NCBI GenBank assembly: GCA_030426805.1 | Contig: JAUHXU010000004.1 | Coordinates: forward strand, 234,792-298,791 | Reading direction: 5' to 3' | Source: a bacterium | GTDB taxonomy: Bacteria > Planctomycetota > JAFGQW01 | DNA length: 64,000 nt | In this document: positions 27,310 to 50,476 of the stretch, in pieces | Layout of the letters: every line of letters begins with the position of its first letter | Numbering within the stretch: position 1 is the first letter of the stretch | Translations under genes and position numbers: made by a program | The notes under the pieces: model-generated | Told to the model about the DNA's origin: nothing | Database searches by the model: none | Seen by the model: only the letters and a program-made list of their open reading frames with translations

Positions 27310-27392
27310 CGACCACGCACAAGCCAAGCGGGTGCGATCGACGTCGACGGTGAGAGAGCCGCGGGGGAGGCGGCGAGCCCGTCGGGGTTGGA

Positions 27393-27562
27393 TGCGCTTG
27401 GCACGCGGATCATGCACCACAAACGCGGCATGGTTGCGCTTGGTGCGCGGTTGTTGCACCGAAACGGACCTGGCTCACTGCCCGCAGCGGGCATTTGGTG
27501 CAGATTCGCTGCGCCAAGCGCACGCATCGCGCGAGTCGGTGCAAGATCGGCCCGCGAAGCGG
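27393..27562. repeat. nested palindrome built from four diverged repeat units
   Basis: Two units read forward from 27393 and 27435, each beginning TGCGCTTGG and ending TGCACC after about 26 bases. Two related units read backward, ending near 27522 and 27562. The outer pair can form a stem with about 19 of 24 matches and the inner pair one with about 17 of 25. A perfect TGCCCGC/GCGGGCA hairpin lies at 27479-27493 near the centre. Total length, 170 bases, equals that of the neighbouring palindromic elements, but no sequence identity with them is obvious. Confidence 0.5.
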
Positions 27563-27715
27563 TTCGAATCGCTTGGCGGCGGTTGAATGGTCGCGTTCAG
27601 GGGGTCGGCTACGCTTGGCGGGCCTCGAGTGCTCTACCCGACAAGCGCCAGTGTCGGCGGGGCGGGAGGTCCCTGGAGACCGGCGAGCCGTCGCGTCGAC
27701 GGGTTGGGGCGTGTG

Positions 27716-27884
27716 CTGCGGCGGCCAGGGGTCCCTGGCGGCGCGAGTAGGCGCGAGCACGTTCGCTCACCTGCCTTTCGCCGACTCTCGCACCGCGGCC
27801 CGGCGCAGCTGCACCTCGCGCCACGTCGTGCGAGCGACGGGACGCCTCTTCCGAAGCGACGACAGGGACCCCTGGTTGCCGCAG
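27716..27884 (+). repeat. palindromic element, copy C
   Basis: The ends are 28-base inverted repeats (27716-27743 and 27857-27884) matching at 24 of 28 positions, each centred on the palindrome CCAGGGGTCCCTG. An inner TCGCTC/GAGCGA pairing is also possible. Length is 169 bases, equal to copy B at 44745. Starting exactly 65 bases in, both copies share CCGACTCTCG followed by CCGCGGCCCGGCGC. The end sequences are unlike those of copies A and B. It lies 13 bases past the stop of the sensor kinase. Confidence 0.7.
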
Positions 27885-27897
27885 CTTCCCGCGGCCA

Positions 27898-42805: not shown

Positions 42806-44386
42806 GTGACTTCGGAATCGCGAATACGCTGCGACGTGCTCGTCGTCGGCGGCGGGATCGCCGGCGCATCGACCGCGATCCAGGCGGCCGATGCCGGGCT
42901 CGACGTCCTCGTCGTCACGAAGGAAGACGACCTGTTCGAGACGAACACCCGATGGGCGCAGGGCGGCATCATCGGGACCGGGCCCGGGGACACGAAGGAC
43001 CTCCTGCGCGCCGACATCCTCCGGGCGGGCTGCGACATCAACAATCGCGCCGCCGTCGAGGTCTTCTGCGACGAGGGACCCGCTCGCGTCGACGCGTTCC
43101 TCGTCGAGCGGCTCAAGGTGCCGTTCAACCGCGATGGGCGCGGCCGGATCGCGGTCACGGCCGAGGCGGCGCACTCGCGACGGCGGATCTACTACAAGGA
43201 AGACCGCACCGGCCTCGCGATCCAGGAGGCGTGCGAGCACACGATGCGACGGCACCGCCGGATCCGCGTGCTCAAACGCCACATGGCGGTCGACCTGATC
43301 ACGAGCCCGCACCACGACCGCCGCCCGACCGCCGCGTACGAGCCGTCGCGCACCGTCGGCGCATACGTCCTCGCGATCGACGCCGGCCGGGTGATCCGGG
43401 TATTCGCGAACCACGTCGTCCTCGCGACGGGCGGCGTCGGCCACATCTTCCTGCGCACGTCCAATCCCGTCGGCGCGACCGGCGACGGGATCGCGATGGC
43501 GTATCGCGCCGGCGCGCGGTGCGTCAACATGGAATACGTGCAGTTCCACCCAACGACGCTGCACCACGCGGCAGCCCCGGGATTCCTGATGACGGAGGCG
43601 TTGCGCGGCGAAGGGGCGGCGCTCGTGAACCTGCGCGGCGAGCGCTTCATGAAGCGCTACCACAAGGACGGCGAACTCGCGCCGCGCGACGTCGTCGCCC
43701 GCTCGATCTACGAGGAGATCGGCGCCCACAAGGAGGACTTCGTCCACCTCGATCCGTCGACGATCCCGTCGAAGATCGACGTGCGCAAGCGGTTCCGTGG
43801 CATCGCCGACAAGCTCGCCCCGCTCGGGATCGACATCACGCGCGACAAGATCCCGGTCGTGCCGGCGGCGCACTACTCGTGCGGCGGCGTGCTGACCGAC
43901 ATCGACGGTGCGGTCGACGGGATCGCGGGACTCTACGCCGTCGGCGAGACCGCGTGCACCGGCCTGCACGGCGCGAATCGCCTCGCGTCGACGTCGCTGG
44001 TCGAGGGACTCGTCTGGGGAAGCCGCGTCGCCCGTCACATCGTCGAGGGGGGCGAGGTCGATCGACGCATCCGCATGAGCGACTTCCCGGCATGGCGCGC
44101 GGTGCGTTCCCGCGAGAAGCTCGACCCGTTGCTCGTGAGCCAGGACCTGTTGAACATCCGCGCGACGATGTGGAACTACGTCGGGATCGTCCGGACGCGC
44201 AAGCGCCTCGAGCGTGCGCGCTCCGACCTCGGCTACCTCTCGCACCGCGTCGAGAAGTTCTACCGCGAGATCCCGGTGCAACGCGATCTCCTCGAACTCC
44301 GCAACGCGCTGATCGTCGCCCGCGTCATCGCGCAGGCGGCGGCCTCCAACACCCACAGCATCGGCTGCCACTTCCGGTCGGATTGA
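42806..44386 (+). CDS. nadB: L-aspartate oxidase
   Basis: A 526-residue flavoprotein that oxidises aspartate to iminoaspartate, the first step of de novo NAD synthesis. The FAD site is DVLVVGGGIAGASTAIQAA, followed by NTRWAQGGI, LATGGVGHIFLRTSNP, EYVQFHPTTLHH, LMTEALRGEGAALVN, HYSCGGVLTDIDG and TGLHGANRLASTSLVEGLVW. A helical C-terminal domain (MWNYVGIVRTRKRLERA) completes it. GGGGAGAG lies before the GTG. It has its own promoter candidate and no NadA or NadC neighbour, so it looks like an ordinary metabolic gene lying between glycan loci. A palindromic element begins 20 bases after the stop. Confidence 0.95.
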   Translation: MTSESRIRCDVLVVGGGIAGASTAIQAADAGLDVLVVTKEDDLFETNTRWAQGGIIGTGPGDTKDLLRADILRAGCDINNRAAVEVFCDEGPARVDAFLVERLKVPFNRDGRGRIAVTAEAAHSRRRIYYKEDRTGLAIQEACEHTMRRHRRIRVLKRHMAVDLITSPHHDRRPTAAYEPSRTVGAYVLAIDAGRVIRVFANHVVLATGGVGHIFLRTSNPVGATGDGIAMAYRAGARCVNMEYVQFHPTTLHHAAAPGFLMTEALRGEGAALVNLRGERFMKRYHKDGELAPRDVVARSIYEEIGAHKEDFVHLDPSTIPSKIDVRKRFRGIADKLAPLGIDITRDKIPVVPAAHYSCGGVLTDIDGAVDGIAGLYAVGETACTGLHGANRLASTSLVEGLVWGSRVARHIVEGGEVDRRIRMSDFPAWRAVRSREKLDPLLVSQDLLNIRATMWNYVGIVRTRKRLERARSDLGYLSHRVEKFYREIPVQRDLLELRNALIVARVIAQAAASNTHSIGCHFRSD

Positions 44387-44885
44387 GGAGGGGGGGTGTG
44401 GGGAAGCGGTCGCGGATGGATGCCCCTCGCTAGGCTCCATTTGGCTCCCGCCGCGGACAAGCTGCGCTGCGTGCGGTGCATGAGGTGCCGGGCCGCGGCT
44501 GCGAGAGTCAGTGGAGATTGCGGTGCGAGGTGTCCGCGCCTACGTCGCTACGCGAGGGGCATCCATCCGCGACCGCAACCACGTCCCACCTCGATCCGAG
44601 CGGAATGCGAGGCACCCGCGGGGGTGAGATGCGCGCGGCGAGGGCGGGCCCCGTCCTTCGACTACGCCGGCTCGCAGCCGGCCGGCAGCTCGCACGGCCG
44701 GCGCCTCCGGTCGCGCGCTTCCCGTTCACACCGCTGTCGTTTGAGCGGTCGGGGGGTGAACCCCCTCGCGTAGCGACATAGGCGCGGACACCTCGCACCG
44801 CCGTCTCCACCGACTCTCGTAGCCGCGGCCCGGCGCCTCCCACCCCGCGCGCTGTGCACATGTCCGCGGCGGGAGCCCCCGGAGC
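44387..44885. other. 499-base intergenic region between convergent genes, two palindromic elements
   Basis: No gene supported. It holds two opposed copies of a palindromic element (44406-44576 and 44745-44913) separated by 168 GC-rich bases that contain a small GCCGGC hairpin and nothing else recognisable. The facing genes are nadB and a polysaccharide deacetylase. Confidence 0.8.
44406..44576 (-). repeat. palindromic element, copy A
   Basis: This 171-base element has perfect 25-base inverted ends (44406-44430 and 44552-44576). An inner 8-bp stem is formed by CGCGGACA at 44452-44459 and TGTCCGCG at 44531-44538. Reverse-complemented, its first 96 bases match copy B at about 83 positions, and the far side shares TGTCCGCGGCGGGAGCC and GGAGCCTAGCGAGG. 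The terminal stems differ from those of copy B at six positions per arm. It starts 20 bases after the nadB stop. No flanking target duplication is obvious. Confidence 0.85.
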
Positions 44886-44913
44886 CTAGCGAGGGGGTTC
44901 ACCCCCCGACCGC
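44745..44913 (+). repeat. palindromic element, copy B
   Basis: This 169-base element has perfect 25-base inverted ends (44745-44769 and 44889-44913). An inner stem joins 44783-44790 and 44861-44868. It is the inverted relative of copy A and shares the CCGACTCTCG core with copy C. Its right end runs into the deacetylase gene and supplies that gene's last eight codons and its TAG stop. It carries no gene of its own. Confidence 0.85.
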
Positions 44914-45824
44914 ACCCCGCCTGCGGCGCGCTCCGGGAAGAGCACGGCCGGAGGCGCCTGTTGCGCGAGTTCCGGCCGGCGTGCGAGTTCGGCGTCGAGG
45001 ACGTTCAGGGCGGTGTCGAACGGGAAGCGGTGCACGAGGTAGCGGATCTTGCGTGCGGTGCGGGAGAGGTTGACGGTGTGCATGAAGCGCTTGAGCGCCG
45101 GGATGCCGTCCGGGAGTGGTTGGTCGGGATCGAGTTCCCACGGGTGCAGGTAGAGCATGGCCGGGTGTCCCGCCGCGTTCATCGCGCGCACTGCCGACGC
45201 GATCCACCGGATCGGGAAGAGGCGCAGGTAGCCGCCGCCGGCGACCGGGAGATTCCGCGCGGCGAGTCCCACGCGGCGCGTCAGCAGCGGAAACGACCAG
45301 AGCACGCGCTCGCCGTCCCGGCGTGCCGGGCCGATGTGCCGGGGCGCGTCCGGGCAGCCGTAGCGCTCGCGCGCGACCGGAAAGACGCTCGAGTCGTAGC
45401 GGTAGCCGCGGCGAAAGAGCACGTCGAGGGCCCACCAGGTGCCCGGCATCACCGTGAAGCTCGGCGCCCGATAGCCGAGCGGGCGGGTCCCGACGATCCC
45501 CTCGAGGAGTTCCTCGGCTCGCTCGAGGTCGCGTTCGAACGCGTCCGGGTCGAGTTCGGTCAGCAGGTCGTGGCCGTAGCCGTGCGACGCGATTTCGTGC
45601 CCGCGTCGTGCGATCTCGGCGACCAGGTCCGGTTGGCGCTCGGCGACCCAACCGAGGACGAAGAACGTGCCGCGCGCGTCGCGTTCGTCGAGCAGATCCA
45701 GGAACGTGCGCGTCGAATCGACGACACGGCTCGGCAGCGTCTCCCACGCGTCCCGTCGAATCCGGTCGCGCAGGTTGTAGACGTGAAACCACTCCTCGAC
45801 GTCGAGGCTGAGGACGTTGTGCAC
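44886..45824 (-). CDS. polysaccharide deacetylase of the exosortase-associated (NodB, DUF3473) type
   Basis: A 312-residue carbohydrate esterase with a NodB fold. Motif 1 is SLDVEEWF (D8, E10), the metal-binding HxxxH is HGYGH (H81, H85), and motif 3 is LGYRAPSFTV. RYDSSVFPV, VAGGGYLRLFPI and LYLHPWELDPDQP are typical of the subfamily found beside EpsH/exosortase A genes. It removes acetyl groups from amino-sugar polymer. No signal peptide is seen. The GTG start lies four bases after the TPR gene stop. The final residues RSGGEPPR and the stop lie inside palindromic element B, so the natural C-terminus has been replaced or extended. Confidence 0.9.
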   Translation of the reverse strand: MHNVLSLDVEEWFHVYNLRDRIRRDAWETLPSRVVDSTRTFLDLLDERDARGTFFVLGWVAERQPDLVAEIARRGHEIASHGYGHDLLTELDPDAFERDLERAEELLEGIVGTRPLGYRAPSFTVMPGTWWALDVLFRRGYRYDSSVFPVARERYGCPDAPRHIGPARRDGERVLWSFPLLTRRVGLAARNLPVAGGGYLRLFPIRWIASAVRAMNAAGHPAMLYLHPWELDPDQPLPDGIPALKRFMHTVNLSRTARKIRYLVHRFPFDTALNVLDAELARRPELAQQAPPAVLFPERAAGGVRSGGEPPR

Positions 45825-45828
45825 CGGC

Positions 45829-48800
45829 CTACTTCCCCAGCAGCAGTCGTTCGCGTCGGATCGTCTTCTGCACCTCGTCGGGCCAGGTGTCCATCTTCTG
45901 CGCGAGCATGCCGAGCACCTTCAACGCGAGATCGCGCTGACCGTCTTCTCGTGCGAGGGCGATCACGCGCAGCATCGGACGCGGGTCGCTCGGCTCGAGC
46001 TGCCACGCGTGGAAGTGCGCCATCAGCGCGTCCTTGATCTGCAGCCCGCGCTCGTAGAGATCCGCGAGCGCGCGCTTGGCGCGGGCGTTGTTCGGGTGGA
46101 ACGCGACGAGTCGCTGCGCGGCCGCGAGGGCCGCGTCGGACTTCAGGCGGCGCTTCTGGATCTCGATGACCTCGAACATCGCCTCCGGTTGCCCCTTCGG
46201 ATCGAGGGTGAACGCGAACTCGAACTGCGCGATCGCCTCGTTCAGCCGGCCTTCTCTACGGTCGATCTGGCCGAGCGCATACGCCGCCTCGGGCGAATAC
46301 GGGAACGCCTGGAGGAGCGGGCGCGCCTCGCGAAACCGCTCGAGCTCGAAGAGTCGCAGGCCGACACGCAGGTCGAGGTCGGGGAAGCGCAACCGGATCG
46401 CGGGCATCCGCATGTAGAGTTGCAGGGCTTCGTCCCGCTTGGCGGCGAGCATACGGCACGCGAGCACGTAGCCGACGTCGAGCCGGCGGGGATCGGCGAC
46501 GAGTGCATCGCCATACGCCTCGATCGCCGCGTCCGCGGCGTCCTTGCCCATCGCATCCAGCGCGCGGGCCCGGATGCTGTGAATCCGCGAATCGAACGGC
46601 GCGGCGAGCGCCTTCTTCGCGCGGTCGAGCGCGGCGATCGCGGCCTGCGGGTGGCCGCGGCGCAGGTGCAACTCCGCCAGTTCGACGTGCGCGAGGCTCG
46701 TCTTCGGGAAGCGCTCCAGCACGCTCTCGAACGCTTTGACCGCCGCGTCCCATCGCACCGGATCGTGCGCGTCCAGGCGGGCGAGGCCGAGCGCGCGCAG
46801 CCCCGCACCCGCGGGCGCCCGCAGGTCGTCGTAGAGGGCGCGTGCACGGTCCCGCTCCCCGAAGCGGATGTACTGCCGCGCGAGGAGATCGATGAAGAGC
46901 GGGTGCTCCGGGTCGGTCGCGAGCGCGTCCTCGGTGAACTGGAGCGCGCGGTCCCGGAACTGAGGCAGGCCACTGAGTGCGATTCCGCGGATCAGGCGCT
47001 TCCAGAGCGCGATGAAGCGCAGCTCGTTGCGCACGTTGGACTGCTGCAGCAGTTCGTGCAGGTAGGCACCGGAGACACTCGAACGATCCGGGAGCTGACT
47101 TCGCGCCCCGTCGGGCCCGTCGACGATGTAGGAAAGGCCGGTGAGGAAGATCGTGTCGGTGAGATCCCAGTGCCAGTGCGGCTCGCTGCGCAACGTCCGC
47201 AGCGCGTTCGCCCAGTGCGCGCCACCGACCTCGAATTGCGCCCACAGCAGGAGCAGCCCGCCGAGGTGGGGGTGCGCCTTCGCGTAGGCCTGGAGGATCG
47301 GGATGGCACCTTCGTCTTGTGCCAGCGCGAGGAGAACCGCGCGGTCGCGCGCCGCGTCGACGTCGCCGCTCGCCTGCGCGCGCGACAGGAGCGTCATCGC
47401 TTCCTTGCCGTCGCCGGCCCGACGCATCGCGTGGCCCATCACGTAGGCGACCCGCCCGTCGTTCGGATACGCGGATCGGGCGACGTCGAGCACTTCGCGC
47501 GCCGCGACGAGTTCGCCCCGCAGCAACTGGCACTCGGCGATCGTCGCCAGGACGAGGCGACCGAAACCCGGACGGCGGCGCGCGACCGCGGTCGCGAACG
47601 TCTCCCATCCACGATCGAGTGGCACGCCGGGAACGGCGGCAGCCGCGTCTGCGACCACCCCCGAGAGCCGACCGTCCCGAAGGTCGAGCGCCGCGCGAAT
47701 CAACCGGAGAAACGGCGCGGTCGGCATCTCCTTCAGGCCGTCCGTGACGATCGTGCGCGCGGTCGCGTGATCGCCGCTGAAGAACGCGAGCAGGGCGCGC
47801 GCCCGGGCCGGGCTGCCGGGCAGTCTCCGGTCGAGGTCCGCGATGCGCTCCAACGCGATCCGCCACTGCCCGAGCCGCAGCAGGCCGTGGATCGTCGAGC
47901 AGAGCAGCGCTTCGGCCTCCTGCGGGGTCGAGTCGGTCGCACCGATTCGACCGCGCACGTACATCGCGATCAGCTGGTCCATCTCGACGCGCCCGAGATA
48001 GGTGGCGATCCGACCGGCGAGCAGGTAGCCGCGCTCGTCGTTGGGCGCCAGGCGCTGCATCTCGGTCGCGAGGTCGAGCGCCGGTTCGAGTCGCCAGTGC
48101 TCGAGCAGGATCGCCGCGAGGCGTGCATTGACGTCCACGTCGCGTCCGCCGCGGCGGTAGAAGCCGTGCAGGAGGCGAGCCGCCTCGCGCGGGTTGGGCT
48201 GCTCCAGGTAGAGGTCGGCGAGTCGGACGACGAGGTCGGCCCGATCCGGCGCTCTCTCGAGTCCTGCCTCGTACTCCGCGAGCGCGGCGGCGGTCTCGTC
48301 GGCGCGCTCGTGGATCAAGCCCATGAAGTACTCGTAGTCGCCGGGTTGCGCGCGCGGATCGCGGCACACGTTCTCGACCGCCGTGCGCGCGGCCTTGAGA
48401 TCGCCCTGTTTGAGGCGCAGGCGGAGATCGAGGCGCCGCAGCTCGTAGGGGGGCTTCGCGTTCAACTCGAGAGCGCGATCGACGTGATAGCGAGCCGCAC
48501 CGAGCATGTGCGAAGAGCCGCCGATCAAGCGGGCGTAGGCGAAGTGGGTCTCCCAATCGCGCGGGTCGAGTTCGGTCGCCTCGCGCATCAACGCGGTGCA
48601 ACGCGGCACGTCGCCGCGGCGGCGAGCGACCTCGGCCGCGAGCTTCACCGGACGCGCGTCGGCCGGATCGACCTCCTGGGCATCGCGGATCGCGCGGTCG
48701 GCGGTACCGAGATCACCGGCACCCAGCGCGACGCGCGCGAGCAAGAGGTGGGCGATGATGTGCTTCTTCGCGACGACCGCGAGGCGTTCCGCGAACGGCC

Positions 48801-50379
48801 GGGCCTTCTCGTAGTTCCGCTTCTCGACCCAGTGGCTCGCGAGATAGTGGAGCGCCGAACGGTCGCGGTCGTCGCGCCCGAGTGCGCGTCGGGCGGCCGC
48901 GAGGTCTTCGAGCGGCTTCTTCCGATCCGGATCGAGCAGTGCGATCTCGGTGCGATCCCGAAGTGCGTAGATCCCCTCGGGGATTCGCCAGCGCCAGTCG
49001 GGCCGCGCCAGCGCGTTGGCGACCTCCCGCTGCGCGCTCCGGTAGCGCCCCTCGGCGACGTGGAGGTTCGCGATCGCGAGGATCGGCTCGACCTTGTCCG
49101 GGCGGAGCTTCGCCGCGTCCTGGTAGCGGCCGAGGGCCTGCTCGGTGTTCAGCGGGCCGCCCTGCTCGACGAGGATGTCGCCGAGGGTCATCAGCGCGCG
49201 GTAGTTGGAGCCGCGGTTGAGCGACGCGAGCAGGTCGCGCTTCGCGTCCTTGAACTCCTGGCGGAACGCGTGTGCCATCCCGCGGTAGTAGAGGCCGCTC
49301 GAGCTGTTGCGATCGCCGGTGAGCAACGTCGTCGCGACTTCTTCGACGAGCGTCGCGTCGCGCATCAGCACGCCGAGACGGCCTCGCGCGTCGATCGCGC
49401 GGAAGCGCGCCTGGGCGACCTCCTGCATCGTCATCTTCAGGTCGTCGAGCCCGATGAGGTAGCTGCCCCAGTGCGGCACCGCGCGGCTCAGCACAGCCGG
49501 GTCCTGGGAGCGTCGCTCGAGGGACTCGGCGAACAGGCGGTGCGCATACACCTTGACCGCGACGTCGACCTCCTTGTCCGAGTGGGCGAGGAGTTCGGTG
49601 AGCAACGCTTCCGCGGGGCCGTGCGCGAGGAGTCGATCGTGAACGCGCGCCAGTTCGAGCGTCGCGTAGCCCCGACAGCGCAGCGTGCGACGCGCGGTCT
49701 CGAGGTGGTCGATCGCGTCGCGCTTCGTGCGGTGGAGATGGTCGACCTTCGCGAAGATCGGGTGCTTCGGCGGGAGATCGGCTTCGCGCCCGAGTGACGT
49801 GACGATGTCCTGCCGGGCGCGCGCGAAGTTCGGGTGGCGCAGGCACCAGTCGACCGAGTGAATGATCCCCCAGACGTTGGCGCCTCCGTGGTTCTCGAGG
49901 AGGTCGTCCTTGAACGTCGTCCACTCGTCCGCGAGGCGCCGCGCGAGTGCGAGGCCGACCGCGTAGTGGCCGACGGGGTCCGCCGGGTCGGACTGGATGC
50001 GCTGGCGCCCGTAGTCCTCGGCGCGCTGGAACTTCGGCTTGTCGCGCGTGCCCGCGATGACGAGCATCTCGGCGAGTTGGCGCGGGTAGACGTCGCTGCG
50101 CGGGTAGCGCGCGATCAGGTCCCGGTAGATGCGGTCCGCTCGCGTGAACCGCCTCGTCAGGACGAGCGCCTTCACGTAGTCCTCGCGGTCTTCGTCGGTG
50201 AGCTTGCCGCGCTCGCCGAGTCGCTGGTAATAGACGACCGCCCGGGGATAGTCGCGCTCCCAGAACGCCTCGCGCGCCGCCTCGCGAGCACGGGGTGCGC
50301 TCAGCAGGAACGCAGCGCACGCGAGCGCGATTGCCGCGACGCACGCGGACAGGAGCAGCAGCTTCGTTCTCGATCTCAT
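45829..50379 (-). CDS. giant membrane-anchored TPR protein
   Basis: A 1516-residue protein with a single N-terminal hydrophobic helix (LLLLSACVAAIALACAAFLL) and more than thirty TPR-like helical pairs running to the C-terminus; AYALGQIDRREGRLNEAIAQ and KRALADLYERGLQIKDALMA are examples. It should sit in the inner membrane with the solenoid in the periplasm, or be secreted. TPR proteins of similar kind (PrsT type) occur in exosortase polysaccharide loci, though no lipobox is evident here. The start at 50379 places the helix at residue 7; the frame is open 29 codons further. It lies four bases upstream of the deacetylase and 135 bases after the regulator. Confidence 0.85.
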   Translation of the reverse strand: MRSRTKLLLLSACVAAIALACAAFLLSAPRAREAAREAFWERDYPRAVVYYQRLGERGKLTDEDREDYVKALVLTRRFTRADRIYRDLIARYPRSDVYPRQLAEMLVIAGTRDKPKFQRAEDYGRQRIQSDPADPVGHYAVGLALARRLADEWTTFKDDLLENHGGANVWGIIHSVDWCLRHPNFARARQDIVTSLGREADLPPKHPIFAKVDHLHRTKRDAIDHLETARRTLRCRGYATLELARVHDRLLAHGPAEALLTELLAHSDKEVDVAVKVYAHRLFAESLERRSQDPAVLSRAVPHWGSYLIGLDDLKMTMQEVAQARFRAIDARGRLGVLMRDATLVEEVATTLLTGDRNSSSGLYYRGMAHAFRQEFKDAKRDLLASLNRGSNYRALMTLGDILVEQGGPLNTEQALGRYQDAAKLRPDKVEPILAIANLHVAEGRYRSAQREVANALARPDWRWRIPEGIYALRDRTEIALLDPDRKKPLEDLAAARRALGRDDRDRSALHYLASHWVEKRNYEKARPFAERLAVVAKKHIIAHLLLARVALGAGDLGTADRAIRDAQEVDPADARPVKLAAEVARRRGDVPRCTALMREATELDPRDWETHFAYARLIGGSSHMLGAARYHVDRALELNAKPPYELRRLDLRLRLKQGDLKAARTAVENVCRDPRAQPGDYEYFMGLIHERADETAAALAEYEAGLERAPDRADLVVRLADLYLEQPNPREAARLLHGFYRRGGRDVDVNARLAAILLEHWRLEPALDLATEMQRLAPNDERGYLLAGRIATYLGRVEMDQLIAMYVRGRIGATDSTPQEAEALLCSTIHGLLRLGQWRIALERIADLDRRLPGSPARARALLAFFSGDHATARTIVTDGLKEMPTAPFLRLIRAALDLRDGRLSGVVADAAAAVPGVPLDRGWETFATAVARRRPGFGRLVLATIAECQLLRGELVAAREVLDVARSAYPNDGRVAYVMGHAMRRAGDGKEAMTLLSRAQASGDVDAARDRAVLLALAQDEGAIPILQAYAKAHPHLGGLLLLWAQFEVGGAHWANALRTLRSEPHWHWDLTDTIFLTGLSYIVDGPDGARSQLPDRSSVSGAYLHELLQQSNVRNELRFIALWKRLIRGIALSGLPQFRDRALQFTEDALATDPEHPLFIDLLARQYIRFGERDRARALYDDLRAPAGAGLRALGLARLDAHDPVRWDAAVKAFESVLERFPKTSLAHVELAELHLRRGHPQAAIAALDRAKKALAAPFDSRIHSIRARALDAMGKDAADAAIEAYGDALVADPRRLDVGYVLACRMLAAKRDEALQLYMRMPAIRLRFPDLDLRVGLRLFELERFREARPLLQAFPYSPEAAYALGQIDRREGRLNEAIAQFEFAFTLDPKGQPEAMFEVIEIQKRRLKSDAALAAAQRLVAFHPNNARAKRALADLYERGLQIKDALMAHFHAWQLEPSDPRPMLRVIALAREDGQRDLALKVLGMLAQKMDTWPDEVQKTIRRERLLLGK

Positions 50380-50476
50380 CGCGAGTCCCCAGCGTGGCGC
50401 GGTGGCACGACCGACCGTTTCGTGCCCCGACGCCGCCCCTCCCATGGTAGCCGACGTTTTCGTCACTTTCCATGCC

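Follow-up and report, generated by a model that had tools for sequence, protein, structure and literature searches.

Bacterial MITEs (ERIC/RU-1, NEMIS, RUP, Bcr1, and Nezha) are non-coding sequences of 70-300 bp with long terminal inverted repeats, which lie between genes, multiply in lineage-specific bursts, and are able to fold. The repeat described here resembles them in all these respects, whereas its ends are not a fixed sequence and the end of the neighbouring gene has been copied in inverted form. REP/BIME sequences, REPINs, and TIR repeats, which are moved by Y1 transposases (RAYT/TIRYT), are also palindromic and are found downstream of genes, sometimes as opposed pairs; their recognition as single-strand hairpins fits the strand-specific wobble of our repeat. 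A REP has been defined as a palindrome of 20-40 bp with a GTAG or CGTC tag at one end (PMC3733652). In contrast, our repeat is ~170 nt long without GTAG or CGTC as an end tag, (G/A)TAG being found only internally, beside the inner stem P2. Moreover, the RAYT/TIRYT gene is flanked by the repeat in those systems, whereas the Y1 gene of the present genome has no copy beside it. Identity with REP was therefore rejected on length, end tag, and RAYT adjacency.

Two further systems are comparable. In quasipalindrome template-switch mutation and the template-switch origin of hairpins, arms are copied from each other, compensations of several bases arise, and adjacent sequence appears inverted (PMC8794818, PMC7202029), as in our repeat. 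In retron ncRNA, a structured core is enclosed by long paired arms at the termini (a1/a2), the sequence of which is free, and a retron-type reverse transcriptase is encoded in the present genome; however, the repeat occurs as 19 dispersed copies, none of which adjoins the reverse transcriptase. To our knowledge, most template-switch cases described so far are short and affect single sites, whereas ours is a dispersed repeat family at many loci that reaches 60-150 nt into gene ends. We file the repeat with the dispersed intergenic palindromic repeats, as a variant not before described.

Results

The window analysed is a stretch of 64,000 nucleotides from a planctomycete genome, in which an earlier sequence-only reading had described two opposed palindromic elements. 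This description was confirmed for copy A (44406-44576, minus strand in family orientation) and copy B (44745-44913, plus strand), each of which has perfect inverted ends of 25 nt (100%) that form the terminal stem P1. The two arms of P1 lie at 44406-44430 and 44552-44576 in A, and at 44745-44769 (5' arm) and 44889-44913 (3' arm) in B. The copies have 83 of the first 96 positions in common as well as an identical 17-base block, and their arms differ at six positions, all six compensated on the opposite arm and none confined to one arm, as had been reported. The inner stem P2 of 8 bp is likewise kept in both copies (CGCGGACA/TGTCCGCG). Its 5' and 3' arms are at 44783-44790 (CGCGGACA, where most other copies have CGCGAGCA) and 44861-44868 (TGTCCGCG) on the plus strand in B, and at 44531-44538 and 44452-44459, respectively, on the minus strand in A.

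The two copies lie, as stated earlier, between the convergent genes nadB and XrtA polysaccharide deacetylase, but this placement needs correction for B, which overlaps the deacetylase reading frame by 27 nt because the frame extends into it. The 3' end of A is directed towards the nadB stop (44386) at a distance of 20 nt, and that of B abuts and overlaps the end of the deacetylase frame. This frame (44886-45824) terminates in ...VRSGGEPPR, encoded by a P1 arm of B, whereas the protein of the sister genus ends near ...DGGRGG; from this difference in the C-terminus, it seems that the insertion of B cost the gene its native stop. The gene order nadB, XrtA deacetylase, and PEP-CTERM TPR protein (42833-50466; L138) is conserved in the sister genus.

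A third copy, C (27715-27885, plus strand), is located 13 nt from the stop of a minus-strand histidine-kinase-like gene. The segment of ~400 bp from the glycosyltransferase stop to copy C (27310-27714) is missing in the sister genus, contains background-level palindromes only, and may be the eroded remnant of a partner element.

When the complete genome (5.58 Mb, 6 contigs) was searched at the DNA level, ~19 full-length copies were retrieved, each of 163-171 nt and none truncated, at unrelated loci on all six contigs, a number far higher than chance would give. The copies were thus first detected through DNA similarity and not through structure. A covariance model built from the 19 recovered precisely those 19 (E values from 3e-35 to 1e-21) together with weak self-complementary echoes; hence, the further copies that the sequence-only reading had proposed to seek in this way, and whose absence would have told against it, are present. 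The repeat is, like MITEs, short, non-coding, and dispersed, with terminal inverted repeats. Its core is well conserved and includes the near-invariant motif ACTCTCG..CCGCGGCCCGG, and no Rfam match was obtained at the copies in five loci searched. The core is ~170 nt long, or perhaps 200 nt counting the semi-conserved edges. At one copy, L029 (L003, 1250-1640; G000 C2, ~352,600-352,950), which adjoins a tRNA gene, two partial tandem copies of ~112 bp directly precede the full copy; they consist of the 5' P1 arm and the far flank, and look like the result of slippage at the hairpin.

Subsequently, pairing was scored on the 24 pairs of P1 and the 8 pairs of P2 in the 19 copies. Across the copies, 98.7% of the stem cells were paired, and changes on both sides were seen in 21 of the 24 P1 pairs (23 of the 32 pairs of P1 and P2). 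The covariation value was 0.48, compared with 0.15 for shuffled and at most 0.09 for slid alignments, and no shuffle out of 500 reached the observed value. The earlier proposal that the pairing is kept while the sequence is free therefore extends from the first pair to all 19 copies, and the many copies with uncompensated arm differences that would have spoken against it were not seen. Covarying stems across homologues are what is looked for in a structured RNA.

The ends of P1 vary between copies (GTTCGGGG, GCGGTCGC, GCTGCGGC, and GCGCGGGG), GTTCGGGG/CCCCGAAC being present in most. The lengths of the two arms vary together: they are 22/22 nt in ten copies and 23/23 nt in six (A, B, L019, L020, L023, and L027), while C, L024, and L031 are bulged or not cleanly scorable. 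Approximately 60% of the double-compensated differences are transversions, compared with 54% of the differences in the core (pairwise counts, which are not independent), so that most of these changes cannot have gone through a G.U pair. The paired changes in arm length and the transversion flips favour the copying of one arm onto the other.

The strand that folds was examined through the mismatches. In the family orientation, the mismatches in P1 comprise 21 G.T and 1 A.C (p = 1e-5), spread over most copies and many columns, whereas the outer flanks contain 55 G.T and 82 A.C (P1 vs flanks, Fisher p = 6e-7); these counts come from related copies and are not fully independent. On the opposite strand, the 21 G.T would read as 21 A.C. 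This strand-specific wobble suggests that P1 is selected for pairing on the family strand, either in RNA or in single-stranded DNA, and the lack of a G.T excess in the outer flanks suggests that these are not selected for pairing. We infer that the folded strand, which is read towards the abutting gene, is the active form. In 18 of the 19 copies, the whole element has a lower RNA folding energy on the opposite strand, which is no help to this assignment and is probably due to base composition or G-rich loops.

The flank beyond P1 on the side away from the gene repeats, in inverted and imperfect form, the gene-side flank of its own locus. In A, the gene-side flank (44362-44405, plus strand) contains the last nadB codons and the stop, and the far flank (44577-44618, minus strand) is an imperfect inverted copy of this nadB end (p = 0.004). 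In B, the end of the deacetylase coding sequence (44914-45003, minus strand) is likewise found, imperfect and inverted, in a far flank of ~93 nt (44652-44744, plus strand; p = 0.0001). The mean flank match score was 29.8 within the same locus vs 15.8 between loci, a difference reached in 0 of 2000 permutations, and 12 of the 19 loci gave p < 0.01 against 8859 control positions in the window. The outer copy was not significant at C, L016, L022, and L024 (p > 0.13) and was borderline at L017 (p = 0.053). No other palindrome in the window rose above the background, in which imperfect palindromes scoring 32-38 are common; a general tendency of this genome to form palindromes was rejected on this ground.

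The inverted copies extend over ~60-150 nt and often take in coding sequence, such as the nadB end at A and the deacetylase end at B. Mean flank identity is maximal (0.76) at 20-30 nt from the stem and falls to background by ~100 nt, and the 10-20 nt adjoining P1 pair worse than positions further out. The sister genus has kept the coding side (the ends of nadB, an HU-like gene, and others), which indicates that the inverted copy derives from the gene. Two loci, L021 and L026, share a duplicated gene end and serve as an internal control for the behaviour of P1 and of the outer flanks: their outer flanks are more alike between the loci than within each, and their P1 stems carry three changes that affect both arms. 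Locus-specific inverted copies together with multi-base compensations are the marks of template switching at quasipalindromes.

As for placement, the first gene on the 3' side presents its own 3' end to the repeat in 16 of the 19 copies (p = 0.004; gene calls by a simple codon-usage script, not a full gene finder), usually at a distance of 12-55 nt, and L029 faces the 3' end of the tRNA. The three exceptions are L026, at which part of the L021 gene end is present as a duplicate, its partner L015, and L022. Four opposed pairs were found (A/B, L021/L019, L026/L015, and L023/L020); at A/B and L021/L019, and less securely at L023/L020, they stand between convergent genes, each copy serving its own gene. 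A single simple segmental duplication does not account for the opposed pairs, since the flanks of L019/L015, L020/L023, and A/B are not homologous and only L021/L026 share the duplicated gene end. Beside the copies, neither strong upstream conservation nor a promoter-like sequence was seen, and no U-run follows the stem. A terminator acting in the sense of the gene is made less likely by the missing U-run and by the P1 wobble on the other strand, yet the folding energy of the whole element favours the gene-sense strand.

The sites were then compared with relatives. In the sister genus, represented by one genome of the same family, nadB and the deacetylase gene are also convergent, but only ~25 bp separate their stops, compared with ~500 here; the spacer of the gene pair around copy C is ~25 bp vs ~590 here, although the comparison is with a different genus and another rearrangement is possible. 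The covariance model found no copy in 58 relatives and 391 genomes of the phylum, the same-family genome included, where few candidates were scored per genome and diverged homologues could escape. A DNA search of 392 genomes gave four weak matches, none with an element around it on inspection. A scan of 84,980 species genomes with the core motif gave 61 single matches, none backed by the covariance model, and one match on a phage contig also had no covariance-model support. As in the covariance-model search, only a few candidates per genome were scored in these searches, so that diverged homologues could have escaped all of them. Copies in relatives, which the earlier reading had suggested looking for, were thus not found, and this absence fits a young lineage-specific repeat. 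Together with the empty sites, the absence from the phylum genomes indicates that the element spread in this lineage.

Two genes in the genome might encode a mobilising enzyme. The only Y1 transposase gene (IS200-like, RAYT/TIRYT-like; L033, 1234-1917; G000 C2, 736 kb) has at its locus no copy, no matching repeats or arms, and no obvious flanking terminal repeats. The other gene encodes a retron-type reverse transcriptase (L107, 5935-7170; G000 C5, 593 kb), whose best PADLOC match was RT_XIII (type XIII-like) and which adjoins a DNA methyltransferase-like reading frame; no copy of the repeat is present at this locus. Accordingly, neither enzyme was accepted as the partner of the repeat. Isolated arms do not flank any transposase in the genome, and conserved ends shared with a transposase-bearing element, as expected of a MITE, were not found, since the ends vary and no isolated arms lie beside a gene. 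No consistent direct repeat was seen at the element ends, where the inverted flank copies would hide a target-site duplication. We infer that the non-autonomous repeat was moved by an enzyme.

Discussion

The sequence-only reading had left two alternatives, a structured RNA or DNA element and a mobile palindrome in which one arm is copied from the other. Each is supported in part, and the data favour their combination. The strand-specific wobble indicates selection on one folded strand and so supports the first; the co-varying arm lengths, the double flips that bypass G.U, and the locus-specific inverted copies of gene ends support the second. We consider that there is about an even chance that the family is a lineage-specific, non-autonomous palindromic repeat, in which fold-back (template-switch) copying, together with selection on the hairpin of one strand, preserves the match between the arms.

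Such a repeat would spread as a non-autonomous element and settle at gene 3' ends in one orientation. A single template-switch event during replication could compensate for changes of several bases, for transversions, or for indels, and variants that do not pair would be removed by selection on the folded strand. Where fold-back copying overran the element, the end of the neighbouring gene would be copied in inverted form onto the far side; only copies that overwrote the non-coding side would survive, and hence the gene would always appear as the source. The outer inverted copy, lying outside the selection for pairing, would be decaying. According to published work, template switching can both give rise to hairpins and preserve them (PMC8794818). 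The poorer pairing of the 10-20 nt adjoining P1 speaks against this reading in that it is not expected of simple contiguous copying, and so do the four loci with no significant outer copy and the failure to link a mobilising enzyme to the repeat.

The covariation, the strand-specific wobble, the near-invariant core motif, and the placement and orientation at gene 3' ends would also be consistent with a functional structured RNA. In that case, a transcript of the family strand, convergent to the gene, would fold and act at the gene 3' end, for example by blocking or processing antisense or read-through transcription; ordinary selection would compensate the stems, and mobility would be secondary. 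However, no conserved promoter-like sequence lies beside the copies and no U-run follows the stem, the transversion flips and paired length changes are hard to reach base by base, no copy was found in any relative searched and no match in Rfam, and the inverted gene-end copies would be left unexplained. We therefore regard this explanation as rather unlikely.

It is unlikely, too, that the repeat is a SINE-like retroposon or a single-strand hairpin element that inserts beside stop codons and whose own arms prime fold-back synthesis, each insertion making an inverted copy of the gene end. A MITE, or a REP-like single-strand element, whose transposase acts on the terminal inverted repeats and whose arm variation reflects subfamilies, seems quite improbable. 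The size, terminal inverted repeats, intergenic copies, and lineage-specific burst are alike (PMC3733652), and one Y1 (RAYT/TIRYT-like) transposase gene exists. Nevertheless, a transposase that reads the ends would hold them constant, whereas here they vary; target duplications, which the inverted flanks would hide, were not seen, no arms flank the Y1 gene, and inverted gene-end flanks are not a feature of MITEs.

Very doubtful is retroposon-like insertion by target-primed reverse transcription with a snap-back second strand, to which the retron-type reverse transcriptase might contribute in trans. The cDNA would join the coding strand after the stop codon, and its end would fold back through P1 and copy the gene end. 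This single step would yield the order gene end, element, and inverted gene end and would explain why the abutting gene is the source; it needs a folded RNA of the family strand, and the genome encodes a type XIII-like retron reverse transcriptase. On the other hand, this reverse transcriptase has no nearby copy and looks ordinary, retrons being common; all copies are full-length, while target-primed insertion usually leaves 5' truncations, and neither poly-A nor another target signature was observed. Finally, an assembly artefact or chance palindromes is scarcely conceivable: although the genome is G+C-rich and its background of imperfect palindromes scoring 32-38 is dense, such an origin is contradicted by the 19 copies, which occur on 6 contigs at unrelated loci, have flanks specific to each locus, and score well beyond the background, as well as by the permutation tests.

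How paired stems come to change on both sides together is a long-standing question. Returning to the preferred reading, in which fold-back copying and selection on one strand act on a mobile repeat, a single genome offers 19 copies that display arms altered in step, both by point changes and in length, alongside the ends of unrelated genes copied in inverted form, and the strand-specific wobble bias separates selection from copying. The template-switch model of hairpin evolution thereby becomes directly testable in a bacterium, with a repeat family of a sort that is missed by transposon searches based on matching ends.
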